Shown here: piece after piece, positions 7,347 through 16,401 of the stretch
Numbering within the stretch: position 1 is the stretch's first letter
Layout: each line of letters starts with the position of its first letter
NCBI GenBank assembly: GCA_030827135.1
Contig: JAURFE010000004.1
Location: 93,019-157,018 of the forward strand
DNA from: Vicinamibacterales bacterium
Lineage (GTDB): Bacteria; Acidobacteriota; Vicinamibacteria; Vicinamibacterales; SCN-69-37
Direction of reading: 5' to 3'
DNA length: 64,000 nucleotides
The notes under the pieces: generated by a model
Told to the model about the DNA's origin: nothing
What the model saw: only the letters and a program-made list of their open reading frames with translations
Databases searched by the model: none
Translations under genes and position numbers: made by a program

Positions 7347-8243
7347 ATGAGCGCACATCAGGCAGTCGTGTATGTGAATGGCCGGATCACCCCTGCGGCG
7401 GAGGCCGTGGTGCCGGTGTTTGACCACGGGTTCCTCTACGGCGAGGGGGTCTATGAAACCCTGCGCACCTACCGCCGGGAGCCGTTTCTGTTCGGGCCCC
7501 ACATGGACCGGCTGCGCCGGTCGGCCGGCCTGATGGCGCTTGACGTGCCGTTCACGGACGCGCAGATGTCGGGCTGGATGACGGACACGATGGCGGCGCA
7601 CGACAGACTGATGGGTGTTCTGCCGGAGGCGTACATCCGGATCCTGTTGACGCGCGGTGTTGGAGCGCTGACCTACAACCCGGCCGCCTGCCCCACACCG
7701 ACCGTTGTGATTATCGTCAAGACCTTTCCCGCGCCACCGGACCGGACGTTCACCGAAGGCATTGCGGTGGCACTGGTCGATGTCCGCCGCAATCATCCGG
7801 ACGCGCTGAACCCCACGATCAAGTCGAACAATCTGCTCAACAACGCGCTGGCGATGCAGGAGGCGCTCCGCCATCACGCGGACGAAGCCCTTATGCAGAA
7901 CCATGACGGCCACATCGTGGAATGTTCGCAGTCGAATTTCTTCATCGTGTCCGGCGGCCGCCTGCGCACGGCGCCGCTGGCCGACGGCCTGCTGCCCGGC
8001 ATCACGCGGCAGTTTGTAATCGAGCTCGCACGCGACACCGGGGTTGCCACCGACGAAGCTTCCTTCGGGCCTGAGGAGGTCTATCGCGCCGACGAGGCGT
8101 TCATTACAGGTACAACGCGCGAAGTGACCCCCGTCGTGCGTGTCGGGACACGGGTCATCGGCACCGGAGCGCCGGGGACGGTCACGCGGCGTCTGCTCGA
8201 GGCATTCAGGCGCCGCGTCGGCGCGTCTGCGCCCTATTCGTAG
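7347..8243 (+). CDS. class IV PLP-dependent aminotransferase (branched-chain/D-amino-acid type)
   Basis: Fold-type IV aminotransferase of 298 residues. The PLP-binding lysine is Lys159 in [10 protein letters not shown], the same position as in E. coli IlvE; the [16 protein letters not shown] start and ECSQSNFF motif are typical. Candidate reactions are transamination of branched-chain amino acids, D-alanine or 4-amino-4-deoxychorismate lyase; the sequence alone does not choose. ATG 7347 is preferred because it starts the conserved N-terminus; an in-frame extension to 7188 lies inside nnr. There is no close Shine-Dalgarno, and a -10-like TACTAT ends 10 nt before the ATG, suggesting a leaderless transcript. 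Overlaps the end of gcvP by 10 bp. Confidence 0.92.
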
Positions 8244-11071
8244 TCGGACATCGGCGGGCACGCACACACGAGATTGCGGTCGCCGTAGGGGTTGTCGATG
8301 CGCGAAATCGTCGGCCAGAACTTGTGCTGACGCAGCCATGCCACTGGATACGCCGCCTGTTCGCGGGTGTATCTGTGGTTCCACTCAGTCGCTGACACGT
8401 CCTGGGCCGTGTGCGGCGCGTTCTTCAGGGCGTTGTCCAGCTTGTCGGACTTCCCGCTGATGATGTCCTGAATTTCCCCGTGTATTGCGATCATCGCATC
8501 GCAGAACCGGTCGAGTTCCTGCAGCGGTTCACTTTCCGTCGGCTCGACCATCAACGTGCCTGCCACAGGGAACGAGACCGTCGGCGCGTGGAAGCCGTAG
8601 TCCATCAACCGCTTGGCCACGTCGGTCTCATCCACGCCGTGCGCCTTGAACGGACGCAGGTCGAAAATGAGTTCGTGTGCGACCCGGCCATTCGCCGCCG
8701 CATAGAGCACCGGGTAGTGCTTCTCAAGGCGGGCCTTGATGTAGTTGGCGTTGAGCATCGCAAACCTGGTCGCCGCCGTCACGCCTTCGCCACCGAGCAT
8801 GGAGATGTAGCCGTACGAGATCAGCAGGATGCTCGCACTGCCCCACGGCGCCGCCGACACAGCCGTCACGCCTGATGCGCCACCCATCGGCACCACCGCG
8901 TGCCCCGGAAGGAAGGGCGCGAGGTGTGCGGCCACGCCGATCGGTCCCATGCCGGGGCCGCCGCCGCCGTGCGGAATCGCAAAGGTCTTATGCAGATTCA
9001 GGTGGCACACATCAGCGCCAATCGACGCAGGACTGGTGAGGCCCACCTGCGCGTTCATATTGGCGCCGTCCATGTAGACCTGACCGCCGTTGGCATGGAT
9101 GATTGCGCAAATCTCGCGGATGCCGCCCTCGAACACGCCGTGCGTGGACGGATACGTCACCATCAGGCACGACAACTTGTCCTTGTGCGCTTCGGCCTTC
9201 GCTTTGAGATCCGCCACGTCAATGTTGCCGAGCGCATCACAGGCGACGACCACAACCTTCAGGCCGACCATTGCGGCGCTCGCGGGATTGGTGCCGTGTG
9301 CCGATTGGGGAATCAGCACGACGTCCCGGTGAGTCTGCCCCTGGCTGTGCTGATAGGCGCGGATGACCAGCAGTCCGGCGAATTCACCCTGCGCGCCGGA
9401 GTTGGGCTGCAGCGAGACGGCCGCGAACCCGGTGACGACACACAGCGCTTTCTCCAGGTCGTCGATCACCTGCTGATACCCGGCGGCTTGCGCCTTCGGC
9501 GCGAACGGATGGATCTTCGAGAACTCGGCCCAGGTGACCGGCATCATCTCGGCCGCCGCGTTGAGCTTCATTGTGCACGAGCCCAACGGAATCATCGCGG
9601 TGTCGAGACCGATGTCCTTCTTCTCCAGCATCCGGATGTAGCGCATCATCTGCGTTTCCGAGTGGTGGGTGTTAAAGACGGGATGCGTCAGATACGTCGA
9701 CGTCCGCGCGAGGGCCTGCGCGATCGGCGCTCCGGTCGCCGGCACCGTGATCGCCGCACCCGCGGCCTCGCCGAACGTGGCGACGACGTCCGCGAAATCC
9801 CCACCGGTGACCGTCTCGTCCAGCGACAGTTGCACGACGGTTTCGGACGGATACCGGAAATTGATCTTCCGCTTCTCCGCCGCCGCCTTGACCCCGGCCA
9901 CCTGTGCCGCGGTGCCTTCAAGACGCAACGTGTCGAAATAGGCCGCGTTGGTCTGCGTCCATCCAGCCGCGCTCAGGGCCGCCGCGAGTCTGGCCGTGTA
10001 GCCGTGCACCCGCGTCGCGATGGCCCGGATGCCCTCAGCCCCGTGATAACAGGCGTAAAACGCCGCGATGTTCGCGAGCAGCGCCTGCGCGGTGCAGATA
10101 TTGGACGTCGCCTTCTCACGGCGAATGTGCTGTTCACGCGTCTGCAACGCCATGCGATACGCGCGCCGGCCCTTCGAGTCCACCGACACGCCGATGATTC
10201 GGCCCGGCGCCTGGCGTACAAACGACTCGCGGGTGGCGAAGAACGCCGCATGTGGCCCACCGTAGCCGAGGGGGACGCCGAAGCGCTGCGCCGACCCGAT
10301 GACCACGTCAGCGCCCGCCTCTCCGGGCGGGGCATACAACGCCAGCGACAACAGGTCGGAACCCACGGCGACAAGGGCACCCGCCGCATGCGCGCGCTCG
10401 ATCAGGGCCTTCAGGTCGCGCACCTCCCCGTGGTCATCCGGCGACTGCACATACACGCCGAACACGTCCTCATCAAGCGTGGCCGTGCCCGGGTCTTCGA
10501 ACCGAAGTGTGATGCCGAGTGGCTCCGCGCGCGTCATGAGCACGTCGCGCACCTGCGGGAAGATGCGCGGCGACACGACGAACGTATTTGCGCTCTGCCG
10601 CTTCGAGACACGCGCGAGCAACGTCATCGCTTCGGCCGCCGCTGTCGCTTCATCAAGCAGCGAGGCATTCGCGACATCCATCCCCGTCAAATCCGTCACC
10701 ATCGTCTGGAAATTGAGGAGGGATTCGAGGCGCCCCTGCGCAATCTCCGCCTGATACGGCGTATACGGCGTGTACCAGCCCGGGTTCTCGAACACGTTGC
10801 GCAGGATGACGGCCGGCGTGATGGTGTCGTAGTACCCCATGCCGATGTAGCTCCGGCAGACCGTGTTCTTCGCGGCGACGCCGCGCAGACGTGCGAGGTA
10901 GGCGGACTCGGTCTCCGCCGCCGGCAACGCCAGCGCGCCCTTCAGCCGGATGTCGGCCGGCACAATCTCATCGATCAACGCATCAAGCGACGAGGCGCCG
11001 ACGGCGGAGAGCATCGCCGGCAGTTCATGCGTACGGGGACCAAGATGGCGGGACTGAAACGTGTCGGACAC
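8234..11071 (-). CDS. gcvP: glycine dehydrogenase (decarboxylating), P-protein, single chain
   Basis: PLP enzyme that decarboxylates glycine and passes the aminomethyl group to lipoyl-GcvH. The 945-residue chain is the fused form with both halves; the PLP lysine is Lys695 in [17 protein letters not shown]. Conserved N-terminal sequences such as [14 protein letters not shown] and C-terminal PTESEP are present. It is the third gene of gcvT-gcvH-gcvP, starting 31 bp after gcvH. The L-protein (dihydrolipoamide dehydrogenase) gene is not in the window and must be supplied elsewhere. Confidence 0.98.
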
Positions 11072-11102
11072 CGGCGAACCTCGCTAAACGGGGGCGGGAA
11101 AG

Positions 11103-11474
11103 TTACTGCGTGAGCGCTTCGTACTGGCCGGCGTCGAGCAACGCGGCGAGATCGCCGGCGTTCGACACACGGACCTTGATCATCCAGGCGTCATGCGGCC
11201 GGCCGTTGACGGCCTCGGGATGCGCGCCCAGATCGCCATTGACGGCGATGACCTCTCCGGCCACAGGAGAAAACAGTTCCGACACGGCCTTGACCGACTC
11301 AATGGTGCCGAAGACCTCGCCCTGCGTGAGGACGCGACCCACGTCGGGCAACTCCACGAACACGACATCGCCAAGCTGCTTCTGCGCAAAGTCGGTGATG
11401 CCGATGGCCGCCTCATCGCCGATCACGCGCACCCATTCGTGGTCTTTCGTGTACTTCAAATCAGTCGGATACAT
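11103..11474 (-). CDS. gcvH: glycine cleavage system H protein
   Basis: Small lipoylated carrier that shuttles the aminomethyl intermediate between P, T and L proteins. The 123 residues match the family length; the lipoyl attachment site is Lys62 in GTIESVKAVSEL, and the chain starts YPTDLKYTKDHEW as usual. An AGGAG motif stands seven bases before the ATG. It lies 30 bp after gcvT and 31 bp before gcvP, so the three form one operon. Confidence 0.98.
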   Translation of the reverse strand: MYPTDLKYTKDHEWVRVIGDEAAIGITDFAQKQLGDVVFVELPDVGRVLTQGEVFGTIESVKAVSELFSPVAGEVIAVNGDLGAHPEAVNGRPHDAWMIKVRVSNAGDLAALLDAGQYEALTQ

Positions 11475-11504
11475 GCCAACTCCTCGAGCTGTAGGTGACG
11501 GTCG

Positions 11505-12629
11505 TCAGACCGTCTTCGGACGTTTGTAGAAAGGTTCGGGAACAACAACGGCGGCCACACGCCGGCCGCGGATCTCAATCTGAAGGGGCGTGCCGGGTTC
11601 GGAGCGGGAGACCGGCACCATGGCCAGGCCAATCGCCTTCTTGAGAAACGGGGTCTGCGTACCGCTCGTGACCACGCCGACCGTGTCGCTGCCAATCACC
11701 ACGGGATAGCCATGGCGCGCAATGGCGCGATCCACCATCTCGAAACCGACAAGCTTCCGCTCAAGCGTCCCGGCCTTCTGGGCCCGAAGGGCGCTGGCAC
11801 CGATGAAATCAGCCTTCTTCCAGCCGACAATCCAGCTCAGCCCCGCCTCGACCACGGAGGTGTGCTCGTCCATGTCGGACCCACACAGGCGCATCGAGGC
11901 CTCAAGCCTGAGCGTGTCTCGCGCACCGAGTCCGCAGGGCTTGATGCCATCCTGCGCGCCCGCATCGAGCAGCGCGTTCCACACGGCCTCGGCCTGCGCA
12001 GGCGGCGCAAACACTTCGAACCCGTCTTCACCGGTGTATCCCGTGCGCGAGACCGTGACGCGCACGCCGGCCACTTCGCCCGTGGCAAACCAGTAGTACT
12101 TGATCGCGGGGAGCTCAATGGCGGTCAGACGCTGCAGAATGGCCTCGGCCTTCGGGCCCTGCACGGCGATCAGCGCATACCGCGAACTCGAGTTGACCAC
12201 ACTGGCATCCCCGCCGCGCTCAGCGACGCGCGCCCGGATCCACTCGTAGTCCTTCATGATGTTGCCGGCATTGACGACGAGCATGAAATGCTCGGCCGTC
12301 ATCCGGTACACCAGGATGTCGTCGACAAAGGTCCCTTCGGGAGTGGTTAACGCCGAATACTGGATCTGCCCGTCCGCCAGTCGCGAGGCGTCGTTGGAGC
12401 TGATCCACTGGACCGCCGCCAGTGCGTCCGCACCGGCGATCTCAATCTGGCCCATATGGCTGACGTCGAACAGGCCGGCCTGCGTCCGCACGGCCATGTG
12501 TTCGTCAATGATGCCGGTGTATTCGACCGGCATGTCCCAACCCCCGAACTCCACCATCCGCGCGCCATGCGCACGATGCCGGGCGTTCAAGGGCGTCTTC
12601 TTCAATGAGGCAGGGGGTGGCGTGGTCAT
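11505..12629 (-). CDS. gcvT: glycine cleavage system aminomethyltransferase, T protein
   Basis: Tetrahydrofolate-dependent release of ammonia and formation of 5,10-methylene-THF from aminomethyl-lipoyl-GcvH. The 374 residues show the GcvT fold signatures VEFGGWDMPVEY, DVSHMGQIEI, SRTGYTGEDGFE and LGARDTLRLEA. It is the first gene of the glycine cleavage operon. No glycine riboswitch was recognised upstream; instead a sigma-70-like promoter and an inverted repeat lie in the 77-bp gap before it. Confidence 0.98.
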   Translation of the reverse strand: MTTPPPASLKKTPLNARHRAHGARMVEFGGWDMPVEYTGIIDEHMAVRTQAGLFDVSHMGQIEIAGADALAAVQWISSNDASRLADGQIQYSALTTPEGTFVDDILVYRMTAEHFMLVVNAGNIMKDYEWIRARVAERGGDASVVNSSSRYALIAVQGPKAEAILQRLTAIELPAIKYYWFATGEVAGVRVTVSRTGYTGEDGFEVFAPPAQAEAVWNALLDAGAQDGIKPCGLGARDTLRLEASMRLCGSDMDEHTSVVEAGLSWIVGWKKADFIGASALRAQKAGTLERKLVGFEMVDRAIARHGYPVVIGSDTVGVVTSGTQTPFLKKAIGLAMVPVSRSEPGTPLQIEIRGRRVAAVVVPEPFYKRPKTV

Positions 12630-12706: not shown

Positions 12707-12895
12707 CTAGGGAGCGCTGGTTCGCCGTGGCCAGGCCAGCCGCAGCAGCAGAAACACCACCGCGATTGAGAGATAGAACGGTGCCGGGCCCAGGGATCCG
12801 CTGGCGGGCGCCAGGATCAGCAGGACTGGGAAGACCAGCCCCGTGACCAGCACCGCCAGCAGCACCTGAAGCAGAAAAATCAGAAACGCGCCCAT
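12707..12895 (-). CDS. small two-helix membrane protein, unknown function
   Basis: A 62-residue protein with two predicted membrane helices (about 3-29 and 39-54) and a basic C-terminus (WPRRT). A strong GGAGG stands five bases before the ATG, which supports real translation. It begins 13 bp after the stop of the 256-aa twin-cysteine protein, so it is the last gene of the accessory operon that starts with comEA. I do not recognise a family. Confidence 0.6.
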   Translation of the reverse strand: MGAFLIFLLQVLLAVLVTGLVFPVLLILAPASGSLGPAPFYLSIAVVFLLLRLAWPRRTSAP

Positions 12896-12908: not shown

Positions 12909-13679
12909 TCAGTTCACAAACGGCAGACCGCCGTTGCAGTTGAAGAACCACAGGGCCGTGGCTTCCGCACGAATTGAGAAGATGAGTGTGCACGCGGCCC
13001 AGTCGAGCGCATGGTACCAACGGAGGTCCCTGGTGCACTCGTCGTAGTCGGCGGAGATCCGGCCCAGTTCCGCCACATATTTGTCCCAGCATTCGCCGGG
13101 CGTCGACCCGAGCTGTACTTCGGTCAGATTGACCCGTGTAACCACGGGCCTGACCCGCCGGCCTGCCGCGACCCTTGCCGACTCGGCATCGATCCAGCGC
13201 TGCGTAATGGCCATCGAGGGCGACTGCCCCACCCCGGCCTCCAGGATGACGCGTGTCAGCAGAAGCGCCTGCTGGCCGACGTGCCGGCTGGTGACGGGCA
13301 CCCGCTTGAGCAGGCCGAGCCCGCGGGCCGCGGCATCCGACTGCTGCAGCACGGTGAGCAGGCGGCTGACCTCATCCGCAGTACCATGCACGACCTTCGC
13401 CGATCCACCCGGGGTCAGTACCGTCAGCTCCCGGCGCGCGACCCGCAACTGGAGATGGTCCGTCGGCGTGGTGATGGTGACCAGGGAGCCCTCTGGAGCG
13501 ATCTCCTTCCGGATGGAGACTCCAGCTTCAGTGACCTCAACCAGCATTCGATTACCGGGGTTGCGTGTGACGATGACGTCCGGGGCCACCTGCGCTGCAG
13601 CCATCGGCACGCCCGCCGACGAAGCCGCAGCCAGCGCGGCCAGGGCGAACAGGACACGAGTGCGACTGATTCGATTCAT
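12909..13679 (-). CDS. secreted protein with C-terminal twin C-x17-C domain, unknown function
   Basis: The 256-aa protein starts with a signal peptide (about 1-30, ending AAAQ). A middle region of about 35-190 has beta-rich and helical parts without a family I recognise. The C-terminal 60 residues hold four cysteines, 197, 215, 230 and 248, in the pattern C-x17-C-x14-C-x17-C. The 64-aa protein encoded just upstream has the same pattern with a 12-residue centre, and both share an A-E-x-T-A-L stretch between the last two cysteines. Two disulfides across a helical hairpin would fit the periplasm. ATG 13679 is chosen because GAGGAGG lies six bases before it; ATG 13685 overlaps that site. Confidence 0.72.
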   Translation of the reverse strand: MNRISRTRVLFALAALAAASSAGVPMAAAQVAPDVIVTRNPGNRMLVEVTEAGVSIRKEIAPEGSLVTITTPTDHLQLRVARRELTVLTPGGSAKVVHGTADEVSRLLTVLQQSDAAARGLGLLKRVPVTSRHVGQQALLLTRVILEAGVGQSPSMAITQRWIDAESARVAAGRRVRPVVTRVNLTEVQLGSTPGECWDKYVAELGRISADYDECTRDLRWYHALDWAACTLIFSIRAEATALWFFNCNGGLPFVN

Positions 13680-13690
13680 CGGCATCCTCC

Positions 13691-13885
13691 TCACGAATAC
13701 ACACAGGTGACATACGCGGCCAGCGCCGTGCCTTCGGCGATGGCCCATCCCAGCACGCACTCAAAGGGATCGGCGTACAGCGGCAGCTCGTCCTTGCACG
13801 CGGCATACGCCAGTGTCCCTTCCCAGCTGTCAACCACATAGTGGGCAAAACACGCCACCATCTCAGCGACCTTCACGAACAGCAT
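13691..13885 (-). CDS. 64-aa protein with twin C-x17-C pattern, unknown function
   Basis: Cysteines at 12, 30, 43 and 61 give C-x17-C-x12-C-x17-C, matching the C-terminal domain of the 256-aa protein encoded 11 bp downstream. The chain is short, aromatic and weakly hydrophobic, and has no basic-rich signal peptide, so its location is unclear. Translation is supported by a strong GAGGAGGA six bases before ATG 13885. It starts 22 bp after the stop of the enhancer-binding-protein gene. It could be a stand-alone copy of the domain, a peptide precursor or a binding partner of the larger protein; no choice can be made from sequence. Confidence 0.68.
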   Translation of the reverse strand: MLFVKVAEMVACFAHYVVDSWEGTLAYAACKDELPLYADPFECVLGWAIAEGTALAAYVTCVYS

Positions 13886-13907: not shown

Positions 13908-15005
13908 TCACGGACATCCGTCGAGCGGTGACCCTGCAACCTCGAGGGCACGGCGGTCACCTGGTGAGGCGCCGGCGCCGTACCGCAACAACGCACGGAG
14001 CGTGTGGTAACTGATGTCCAGTTCGTCACACGCCCGGCGCCGATTTCCTTCACACCGGTCAAGCACCAGCCGGGCATACCGACTGCTCCACGCCCGCAGC
14101 GATCGCTCACAGCCAGGCCGGTCACCGGCCATCGTCCGATAGTCACCCACCACCTCGGGCGGCAGGTCGCCGAGCGTCAGCCTTGGCGCCGGGGCGAGCG
14201 CCAGCGCCCGTTCGAGTACCCGTTCGAGCTGCCGGACGTTGCCCGGCCAGTCAAAGGCACATAGCGCTTCGATGACTTCTTCACTGGCAACCAGACGACG
14301 CAGCCGCTGGTGCCGGCCGAGCAGGTGATCGACCAGCATCGGCACGTCTTCCCGCCGTTCTCTGAGCGGCGGCACGGCGAGTTCCACGCCTGACAGGCGG
14401 TAGTACAAGTCGGCGCGAAACTGCCCCTGCCGTACCCGTGTCGTCAATTCCCGGTTCGTGGCGGCAATGACCCGGGTGTCCATCGGGCGCGAACGGCCGC
14501 CGCCGACGCGTTCGACCGATAAATCCTGGAGTACCCGCAACAACTTGGCCTGTGCAGCCAGCGAGAGATCGCCCACCTCGTCAAGAAACAACGTGCCGCC
14601 CTCTGCGAGCTCGAACTTGCCCTGGCGTCCCTTGACACCCGTGGCCGTCCGTTCTTCGATCCCGAAGAGCTCGGCCTCAAGCAGACTCTCAACGAGGGCC
14701 GCGCAGTTGACCGCGACAAAGGGGCCACGGGCTCTCGCGCTGACCGCATGAACATTGCGCGCCACAAGTTCCTTCCCGGTTCCACTCTCACCCGTCACCA
14801 ACACCGTAAACTGCGTCGCCCCGAGCCGGGATATCTGTGTGCGCAGGCGCTGCATGACTTCGCTTCGTCCCACCAGCATCGAGCCCTCCGCCTCCCGCAG
14901 GTTCAAGACTGATGCCATCGCGGGCACCAGCCCCGCTGGCCCGGACCTCGCGGCGACCGCCGGCGACGGGTGGCGCGCTACCCGCCGGGCGTTTCCCATC
15001 GGCAC
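13908..15005 (-). CDS. enhancer-binding-protein-type AAA+ regulator with degenerate GAFTGA loop
   Basis: About 365 aa: a short N-terminal stretch of 40 residues without a sensor domain, an AAA+ domain (Walker A GESGTGKE 72-79, Walker B TLFLDEVGDL 138-147, FDWPGNVRQLE near 270) and a Fis-type helix-turn-helix near 320-345. The loop that normally reads GAFTGA and touches sigma-54 is RTATGV at 119-124, so the key Phe is Ala121. It may therefore not activate sigma-54 in the normal way. GTG 15005 and ATG 14999 overlap the PilZ-like gene; ATG 14918 would shorten it by 29 residues. It sits inside the comEA operon, suggesting a local regulator. Confidence 0.85.
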   Translation of the reverse strand: MPMGNARRVARHPSPAVAARSGPAGLVPAMASVLNLREAEGSMLVGRSEVMQRLRTQISRLGATQFTVLVTGESGTGKELVARNVHAVSARARGPFVAVNCAALVESLLEAELFGIEERTATGVKGRQGKFELAEGGTLFLDEVGDLSLAAQAKLLRVLQDLSVERVGGGRSRPMDTRVIAATNRELTTRVRQGQFRADLYYRLSGVELAVPPLRERREDVPMLVDHLLGRHQRLRRLVASEEVIEALCAFDWPGNVRQLERVLERALALAPAPRLTLGDLPPEVVGDYRTMAGDRPGCERSLRAWSSRYARLVLDRCEGNRRRACDELDISYHTLRALLRYGAGASPGDRRALEVAGSPLDGCP

Positions 15006-15223
15006 ACGCCGCGGTAGACCGGGCCGTCCTTACCCAACCGCGTGATCATCCAGGTGCTGACAAACGCGAGCCGCGTGTCGCCATGGCACACCTCGATGTA
15101 ACTCCCCGGTCGCAGCCGCAGGCGGCCCTCGATGCAGACCTCAGTGGGGCTCTCATTGACGAGGACGACATCCCGCCCGACCACACATCGCCGCCAGCGG
15201 CGATTCGTCACAGGTCGATCCAT
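14978..15223 (-). CDS. small PilZ-like protein (tentative)
   Basis: 81 residues. An arginine cluster near the N-terminus (NRRWRRC) and NESPTEVCIEG about 15 residues later resemble the RxxxR and D/NxSxxG motifs of c-di-GMP-binding PilZ domains, followed by beta-strands. The second motif is imperfect (Gly replaced by Glu), so nucleotide binding is uncertain. GGAG lies eight bases before ATG 15223. It overlaps the end of the pseudopilin gene by 16 bp and the start of the regulator by up to 28 bp, which makes coupled translation likely. Confidence 0.6.
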   Translation of the reverse strand: MDRPVTNRRWRRCVVGRDVVLVNESPTEVCIEGRLRLRPGSYIEVCHGDTRLAFVSTWMITRLGKDGPVYRGVCRWETPGG

Positions 15224-15786
15224 CGGCGAGTCTCCACCGAGAACCGCACGACACGAATACGCCCGGTCACGCCGGCGACCCGCACCGCATAGTGCCGGCC
15301 ACCACGGGTCATCACCGTGACCGAGCCGGACGAGGAGGACCCGAGCGGCGAGAAGCTCGCAATGCCGGAGGCGCCGAAGGCCACAGCCGCGCCGGTCATC
15401 TGTCCCGAGAGGTCCGGTACCGTCGACGCCCGATCAATCGTCGTGCGCGGATACCACGCGTCAATCGAGCGCGCTTCGCCCTCACACGTGTCGATGCCGG
15501 CGGCAAGGTCAAGACGAAGAAGGCCGTCGCCGTCCTGGTCCTCACATCGCCTGAACACCCAGGCCTCACCGCTCCGGTCAAACACGAAGCCGATGTGCCG
15601 GCCGGCCAGGACAGCCTGCTGCCGCGCCAGGCGGAACTGCCCGACCAGGTACGTCGCGGCCTGGCGGCCATCCTGCGCATCCCGCGCATGGATCACCGCC
15701 GGGGCCCCCGTCGCGGTCACCGTGGCCACAAGGGCCACGGTGACCAGCATCTCAAGCAGCGACGCACCGGTGTCGCCTGCTACCAC
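15208..15786 (-). CDS. FimT/GspH-like type IV pseudopilin
   Basis: 192 aa with a prepilin-type N-terminus: Gly8 followed by ASLLE, which places Glu at +5 after cleavage, and then a hydrophobic helix to about residue 32. The globular part is of the GspH/FimT kind (FRLARQQAVLAGRHIGFVF). The C-terminus contains GRIR, matching the GRxR motif reported for DNA-binding FimT minor pilins in natural transformation. The neighbour upstream is comEA (7-bp overlap), another DNA-uptake gene, which supports this role. No other pilus genes are present in the window. The start is GTG 15786. A GspH role in type II secretion remains possible. Confidence 0.8.
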   Translation of the reverse strand: MVAGDTGASLLEMLVTVALVATVTATGAPAVIHARDAQDGRQAATYLVGQFRLARQQAVLAGRHIGFVFDRSGEAWVFRRCEDQDGDGLLRLDLAAGIDTCEGEARSIDAWYPRTTIDRASTVPDLSGQMTGAAVAFGASGIASFSPLGSSSSGSVTVMTRGGRHYAVRVAGVTGRIRVVRFSVETRRWIDL

Positions 15787-16112
15787 CCCGCGCCCTTCGG
15801 CGTTGTCACAATCACCAGCGGCTTGAGCGTCAGGAAGGTTTTTTCGCCGATGCCCCGCACGTTCATCAGGTCTTCGACCTTCTTGAATGCGCCGTTTTTT
15901 GTGCGGAACTCGACGATACGGAGGGCGGTGGCGGGGCCGATCCCAGGCAACTTCTCCAACTCGGTGGCCGTCGCCGTGTTGAGGTTGACCGGCGTCGTGT
16001 CCTGAGCGGCGGGACGTGCGGTCTGACGGGCCGTGTCCTGCGCGTGCATGGTGGATGCGGAAGCCACGGTGACCAGGACAACAACGGCGAAGGCAATCAG
16101 TGTGCGATACAT
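15780..16112 (-). CDS. comEA: ComEA-family helix-hairpin-helix DNA-binding protein
   Basis: 110 aa with an N-terminal signal or anchor helix (about 1-25), a short Gln/Thr/Ala linker and two helix-hairpin-helix motifs (NLNTATATELEKLPGIGPA near 50-68 and VEDLMNVRGIGEKT near 84-97). ComEA proteins bind double-stranded DNA in the periplasm and pull it in during transformation. ATG 16112 is chosen for its GAGGAG eight bases upstream. First gene of the accessory operon; an 8-bp-arm hairpin (16132-16152) lies just upstream. Secreted HhH proteins of other function share this architecture, so the symbol is by family. Confidence 0.85.
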   Translation of the reverse strand: MYRTLIAFAVVVLVTVASASTMHAQDTARQTARPAAQDTTPVNLNTATATELEKLPGIGPATALRIVEFRTKNGAFKKVEDLMNVRGIGEKTFLTLKPLVIVTTPKGAGW

Positions 16113-16401
16113 GACGAATCTCCTCAGTGGACCCGGTGTCCCATACACCGGGCGCGTGATGGGGCCGGCGCAGCCGCTCGTTTCCTGACTGCAGGGTCTG
16201 GAGTCCGCATGGTGATTGCGGGTCGGCTGGCCGGGTCCCGGTCCGTCAGGGCTGCAGGACGCGGGCCAACAACACCGCGCGATGCGATGTCAGCGGAAAC
16301 TGTTCAGGGAATTGAGGTTCGGCGGGATGTACCACCGCGTGCACCTATGGTGATGCGCGCCGGTGACTACGGCCGTTGCGCGTGCGCCGTAAATGGACGG
16401 A
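16113..16401. other. intergenic region upstream of comEA
   Basis: No convincing gene in either strand across 289 bp. It contains an inverted repeat CCCGGTGT / ACACCGGG (16132-16139 and 16145-16152) immediately upstream of the comEA ribosome binding site, which could be an operator or leader hairpin. No clear -35/-10 pair or sigma-54 site was found for the comEA operon. The 3' end of the downstream epimerase gene borders it. Confidence 0.5.

Follow-up and report, generated by a model that had tools for sequence, protein, structure and literature searches.

Why should two adjacent genes of a Vicinamibacterales bacterium encode proteins with the same twin C-x17-C cysteine pattern, and what might the larger, exported one do in the cell? 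A first-pass annotation of the 64,000-nucleotide stretch of DNA analysed here (the window) had read the pattern as a small disulfide-linked helical domain, present alone in a 64-aa protein (SMALL) and fused to the end of a 256-aa protein (BIG). The genes concerned belong to a co-directional run (Table 1) ordered comEA-gspH/fimT-p81-AAA+ regulator-SMALL-BIG-2TM-gcvTHP, with SMALL, BIG and the two-TM protein gene 2TM in its distal part; the names gcvT, gcvH and gcvP are those that we assume from the sequence and general knowledge. Genes overlap further upstream, and spacers of 11-22 bp occur around SMALL, BIG and 2TM (22 bp from the regulator gene to SMALL, 11 bp from SMALL to BIG). The ATG of SMALL is preceded by a strong Shine-Dalgarno-like GAGGAGGA (GAGGAGGAAGCC-ATG).

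Table 1. Genes and elements of the run, in window coordinates.
Feature	Position	Strand	Basis
gcvT-gcvH-gcvP, downstream of the module	8234..12629	-	ORFs, synteny
2TM, two-TM protein of 62 aa that always accompanies BIG	12707..12895	-	co-occurrence with BIG
BIG, 256-aa exported protein	12909..13679	-	translation, AlphaFold2 model, orthologues
BIG C-terminal domain (CTD), residues 196-256, C197-x17-C215-x14-C230-x17-C248	12912..13094	-	tail alignment, model, angle analysis
SMALL, 64-aa leaderless protein, C12-x17-C30-x12-C43-x17-C61	13691..13885	-	translation, AlphaFold2, syntenic relatives in G004 and G002
AAA+ / Fis-HTH regulator (Sigma54_activat), no sensor domain	13908..15005	-	Pfam PF00158 3.9e-61
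p81, conserved 81-aa protein without family match	14978..15223	-	Pfam, NCBIfam, synteny
GspH/FimT-type minor (pseudo)pilin	15208..15786	-	PF12019 3.2e-6; NCBIfam; synteny
ComEA-like helix-hairpin-helix protein, heads the run	15780..16148	-	PF12836 1.4e-23; TIGR00426 1.5e-17, above cut-off
sigma-54-type -24/-12 element TGGCCCGCGTCCTGC, ~120 bp upstream of comEA	16254..16268	-	motif enriched in relatives

The twin C-x17-C pattern and its distribution

Translation places the cysteines where the first-pass annotation had put them, at residues 12, 30, 43 and 61 of SMALL (C-x17-C-x12-C-x17-C) and at 197, 215, 230 and 248 of BIG (C-x17-C-x14-C-x17-C). The double equal spacing had been called improbable by chance, and this holds: with 1.1% Cys and a loop of 5-25 residues, 2 million residues of random protein should contain the pattern about 0.6 times. 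The six-frame ORFs of the window contain it 5 times in 97,557 residues; the 3 occurrences besides BIG and SMALL lie in Cys-rich, presumably non-coding frames. The decisive evidence is the retention of x17 across orthologues. Read residue by residue, 27 of 27 full-length BIG orthologues keep C-x17-C-x(10-18)-C-x17-C, with 10 to 18 residues in the loop between the x17 arms, and a 28th, from G020, keeps it too. In a 25-row alignment of the diverged tails the four cysteines are the only invariant positions, while Glu is nearly so at nine residues after the third cysteine (Cys3+9; E in 24 of 25, D in 1), and Trp at Cys3+12 and Phe at Cys3+13 each occur in 19 of 25. Relatives without conserved cysteines, named at the outset as one observation that would speak against the idea, did not appear, as all BIG orthologues analysed and both SMALL relatives keep the cysteines and the x17 spacing. 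The further claim of a common AExTAL motif had to be given up, since AEATAL lies at Cys+8 in BIG and AEGTAL at Cys+7 in SMALL, one residue out of register, and the motif is not kept in the orthologues of either protein.

Of the 162 genomes searched from one order of Acidobacteriota, probably Vicinamibacterales, about 29 carry an intact orthologue of BIG; a tail-profile search matched 32 of the 162, with a single match per genome, one of them weak and partial. The gene is present in all seven genus members examined, including damaged copies, and scattered among the other genera of the order. In two metagenome-assembled genomes (MAGs) it is interrupted (L026, G001) or split (L027, G006) by stops or a frame break, reflecting decay or assembly error. 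No convincing BIG member was found outside the order in a phylum sample of 396 genomes, a plasmid search returned no match, and a scan of public contigs with the genus alignment returned the genus only, all from MAGs, five titled Acidobacteria and one Acidimicrobiia. The isolate name of one Acidobacteria-titled MAG points to deep Lake Baikal. The MAG titled Acidimicrobiia (L081, VFZF01000006.1) nevertheless has an Acidobacteriota locus, so its label seems wrong. SMALL and its relatives are confined to positions next to BIG in three genus members, the window genome included; the relatives in G004 (42-45% identity) and G002 (~24%) have the exact x17/x17 spacing with loops of 12 and 11 residues, and no further convincing relative was found in the 162 genomes.

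Predicted hairpins and their relation to each other and to known families

The AlphaFold2 model of BIG, obtained with 27 BIG sequences (pLDDT 84.5, pTM 0.76), contains a signal helix, seven strands (35-96), helices at 101-171, a low-confidence linker and two final helices (194-217 and 224-248). It predicts a signal peptide at about residues 1-30 and an N-domain that is first beta-rich and then a helical bundle, followed by a C-terminal helical hairpin. SMALL, folded with two sequences, has no signal peptide and is modelled as helices 2-33 and 41-63 (pLDDT 90.5). Structure prediction, which had been put forward as a check, gives antiparallel helix pairs in both proteins, and their four cysteines match in position. 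Since 18 residues make five helical turns, both cysteines of one helix share a face and can reach partners on the other side of the hairpin. The tail of BIG is very probably, on the model, a hairpin of two helices that two disulfide bonds hold together, and the cysteine positions in the models of BIG and SMALL would permit Cys1-Cys4 and Cys2-Cys3 pairing. For the small disulfide-linked helical domain first claimed, the helical part is upheld by these models, and the disulfides we infer. The Glu at Cys3+9 lies 180 degrees from the cysteine face in the angle analysis, and the net charge is -4 for the BIG CTD and -6 for SMALL.

That the same domain occurs alone and fused is upheld as far as the geometry goes, which both proteins have; the profile scores do not establish SMALL as the same domain. 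When aligned on the cysteines and scored, alongside shuffles, against the profile built from 25 tails of BIG, SMALL reaches -6.9 bits (shuffle p=0.003), its G004 relative -14.7 bits (p=0.02) and its G002 relative -48.0 bits (p=0.55); a held-out true BIG member (G020) reaches +24 bits. SMALL also lacks the near-invariant Glu of Cys3+9, together with the Glu/Trp/Phe face that is conserved in BIG. Judged on the sequences, the shared staple geometry could reflect common descent or convergence.

The view that the domain belongs to no known family and differs from the CHCH type agrees with our searches of Pfam, NCBIfam, PHROGs, PDB sequences and PDB folds, none of which gave a significant match for BIG or SMALL; the fold matches of SMALL (best E 1.9, ATP synthase c-ring hairpins) were rejected as generic hairpins. 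The CHCH or twin CX9C proteins of the mitochondrial intermembrane space share the antiparallel two-helix hairpin and the two disulfides between C-xn-C helices that we presume here. However, their spacing is x9, whereas every member of the present set has C-x17-C twice, and the hairpin described here is bacterial, with signal-peptide export and a fused beta/helical N-domain; the CHCH profile of Pfam matched none of 27 BIG members and not SMALL. Plant alpha-hairpinins (CX3C...CX3C) are likewise helical hairpins stapled by disulfides, as those of BIG and SMALL would be, but their spacing is far shorter and they occur in other taxa and contexts.

The two-TM companion, the gene slot and putative sigma-54 control

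A 60-80-aa two-TM protein follows BIG in 27 of 27 orthologues (23 counted with a Shine-Dalgarno filter, the remaining 4 with a looser search) and in G020. BIG and 2TM are jointly absent from seven genomes that were checked, where the regulator is followed by a short gap and gcvT and no 2TM ORF is found. Across the order the genes are arranged as comEA - gspH - (81-aa) - AAA+ regulator - (BIG) - gcvT - gcvH - gcvP, with local exceptions, and comEA-gspH-regulator is kept without BIG in genera of the same family. In other genomes the slot between regulator and gcvT holds different exported proteins. The BIG slot of G037 (L129, 3609-4409, reverse complement) encodes a Tat-signal protein with C-x17-C-x14-C-x17-C and no similarity to BIG; it was rejected as a second conserved twin-x17 family, its one weak relative having a broken frame and lost spacing, and is a single case. 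The regulator-gcvT slot of G045 (L126) encodes a probably exported 389-aa protein with CCDIHDRCY, which resembles a phospholipase A2 active-site signature, and without a Pfam match. A comparison of G000 with G004 gives amino acid identities of 94% (gcvT), 85% (regulator), 67% (BIG) and 42% (SMALL), and pS is 0.71 in BIG and 0.67 in SMALL compared with about 0.5; these raised synonymous differences may reflect allele exchange, although dS is near saturation.

The neighbouring regulator has the AAA+ Sigma54_activat domain, but its GAFTGA is replaced by RTATGV in all 31 loci read across the order, in one as GTATGV. GAFTGA is described as essential in sigma-54 enhancer-binding proteins, and changes of its central residues are reported to abolish activity in most cases (PMC3162934). 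In 17 of 28 loci, comEA is preceded at a distance of 75-141 bp by a sigma-54-type GG-N10-GC element, compared with 1.3 expected and a maximum of 6 among 500 Markov-resampled sets, and rpoN is present; immediately 5' of SMALL and BIG, no convincing sigma-54 promoter was found. As a sequence signal, the conserved -24/-12 motif suggests sigma-54 control of the ComEA/FimT-type operon in Acidobacteriota. Because GAFTGA is altered, the role of the regulator at this promoter is uncertain: either another activator acts there or the variant motif is functional.

A proposed envelope module and its alternatives

We favour, with moderate confidence, a reading of BIG as an oxidised periplasmic hairpin module that works with its 2TM partner, the two forming an optional envelope pair beside a DNA-uptake or pilus operon. 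Computation supports the export signal, the strict conservation of cysteines and spacing, the predicted hairpins, the coupling of BIG to 2TM and the operon layout, and we infer the disulfide pairing, the contact surface, the interaction with 2TM and the DNA-uptake link as parts of a scheme in which (i) BIG would be Sec-exported as a periplasmic or envelope protein; (ii) its last 60 residues would fold as a hairpin of two antiparallel helices, with one end fastened by C197-C248 and the other by C215-C230; (iii) the face opposite the staple, with Glu at Cys3+9 and Trp-Phe at Cys3+12 and +13, would be the likely contact surface; (iv) this surface may meet the remainder of BIG or the 2TM inner-membrane protein encoded just downstream; and (v) BIG and 2TM would make up an optional envelope module of two genes that is expressed together with the ComEA/FimT-type DNA-uptake or pilus operon. 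SMALL would be an additional hairpin, free-standing but stapled with the same geometry, and limited to some genus members; its lack of a signal peptide counts against the scheme as regards cysteine oxidation. The suggested link of BIG to DNA uptake comes from the gene neighbourhood, in which the gcv genes are equally neighbours, and BIG is not core to DNA uptake because its distribution is patchy, with about 30 of the 162 genomes carrying it.

Compatible with this reading of BIG is the possibility, which we hold tentatively but take seriously, that the hairpin of SMALL and the BIG CTD are unrelated and that the x17 staple, favoured by 18 residues making five helical turns, was reached twice independently. 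Residue similarity outside the cysteines is weak or absent, the surface residues differ, and the Tat-type protein that occupies the slot in G037, different again, also has C-x17-C-x14-C-x17-C; yet the two genes are adjacent, their geometry is identical, their acidic charge is similar, and the window pair scores above its shuffles (p=0.003).

Two other functions appear improbable. One is a two-part antagonism resembling halocin C8, in which the N-domain would be a pro-region or immunity domain, the CTD hairpin a released bacteriocin, 2TM the immunity protein or partner and SMALL a second peptide. The precursor of halocin C8 is exported and its C-terminal segment is bioactive and Cys-rich, though its cysteines differ in number and pattern from those of BIG. 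The exported precursor-like BIG with its small Cys-rich helical tail, the obligate small membrane partner, which has the size and topology of two-TM bacteriocin immunity proteins, the patchy presence, the rapid divergence and higher pS of BIG and SMALL relative to gcvT between G000 and G004 and the occupation of the same slot by other exported proteins would all fit. However, the CTD and SMALL are acidic, SMALL is leaderless, the 62-aa partner has its own gene and no family match, and the nearly invariant CTD Glu and low dN/dS (0.11, with dS near saturation) are unlike diversifying toxins; moreover, the NCBIfam halocin profile matched neither BIG members nor SMALL nor the G037 protein, and none of the immediate neighbours read is an obvious dedicated exporter or processing protease. 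We attach equally little credence to BIG as a dedicated ComEA/FimT accessory, for example in periplasmic binding or guiding of DNA or of a pilus tip. Its appeal lies in the order-wide identical gene run, the shared upstream promoter motif and the DNA binding by FimT-type minor pilins (PMC8897410), but genera of the same family retain comEA-gspH-regulator while lacking BIG, an acidic CTD does not favour DNA binding, and unrelated exported proteins also take the slot. Doubtful, though conceivable, is a broader idea in which the locus represents a new class of envelope module, an exported twin-CX17C stapled hairpin with an obligate 2TM and SMALL variants, carried as swappable cargo in a sigma-54 DNA-uptake operon and serving antagonism or uptake control.

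If the reading of BIG as an oxidised periplasmic hairpin with a 2TM partner is right, twin CX17C would take its place beside twin CX9C as a helical hairpin stapled by disulfides, in this case bacterial and borne by an exported, unannotated family with a conserved membrane partner. A gene pair of a common but poorly studied phylum would thereby gain both a fold and a partner, as well as a context open to testing, namely DNA uptake or pili under sigma-54.
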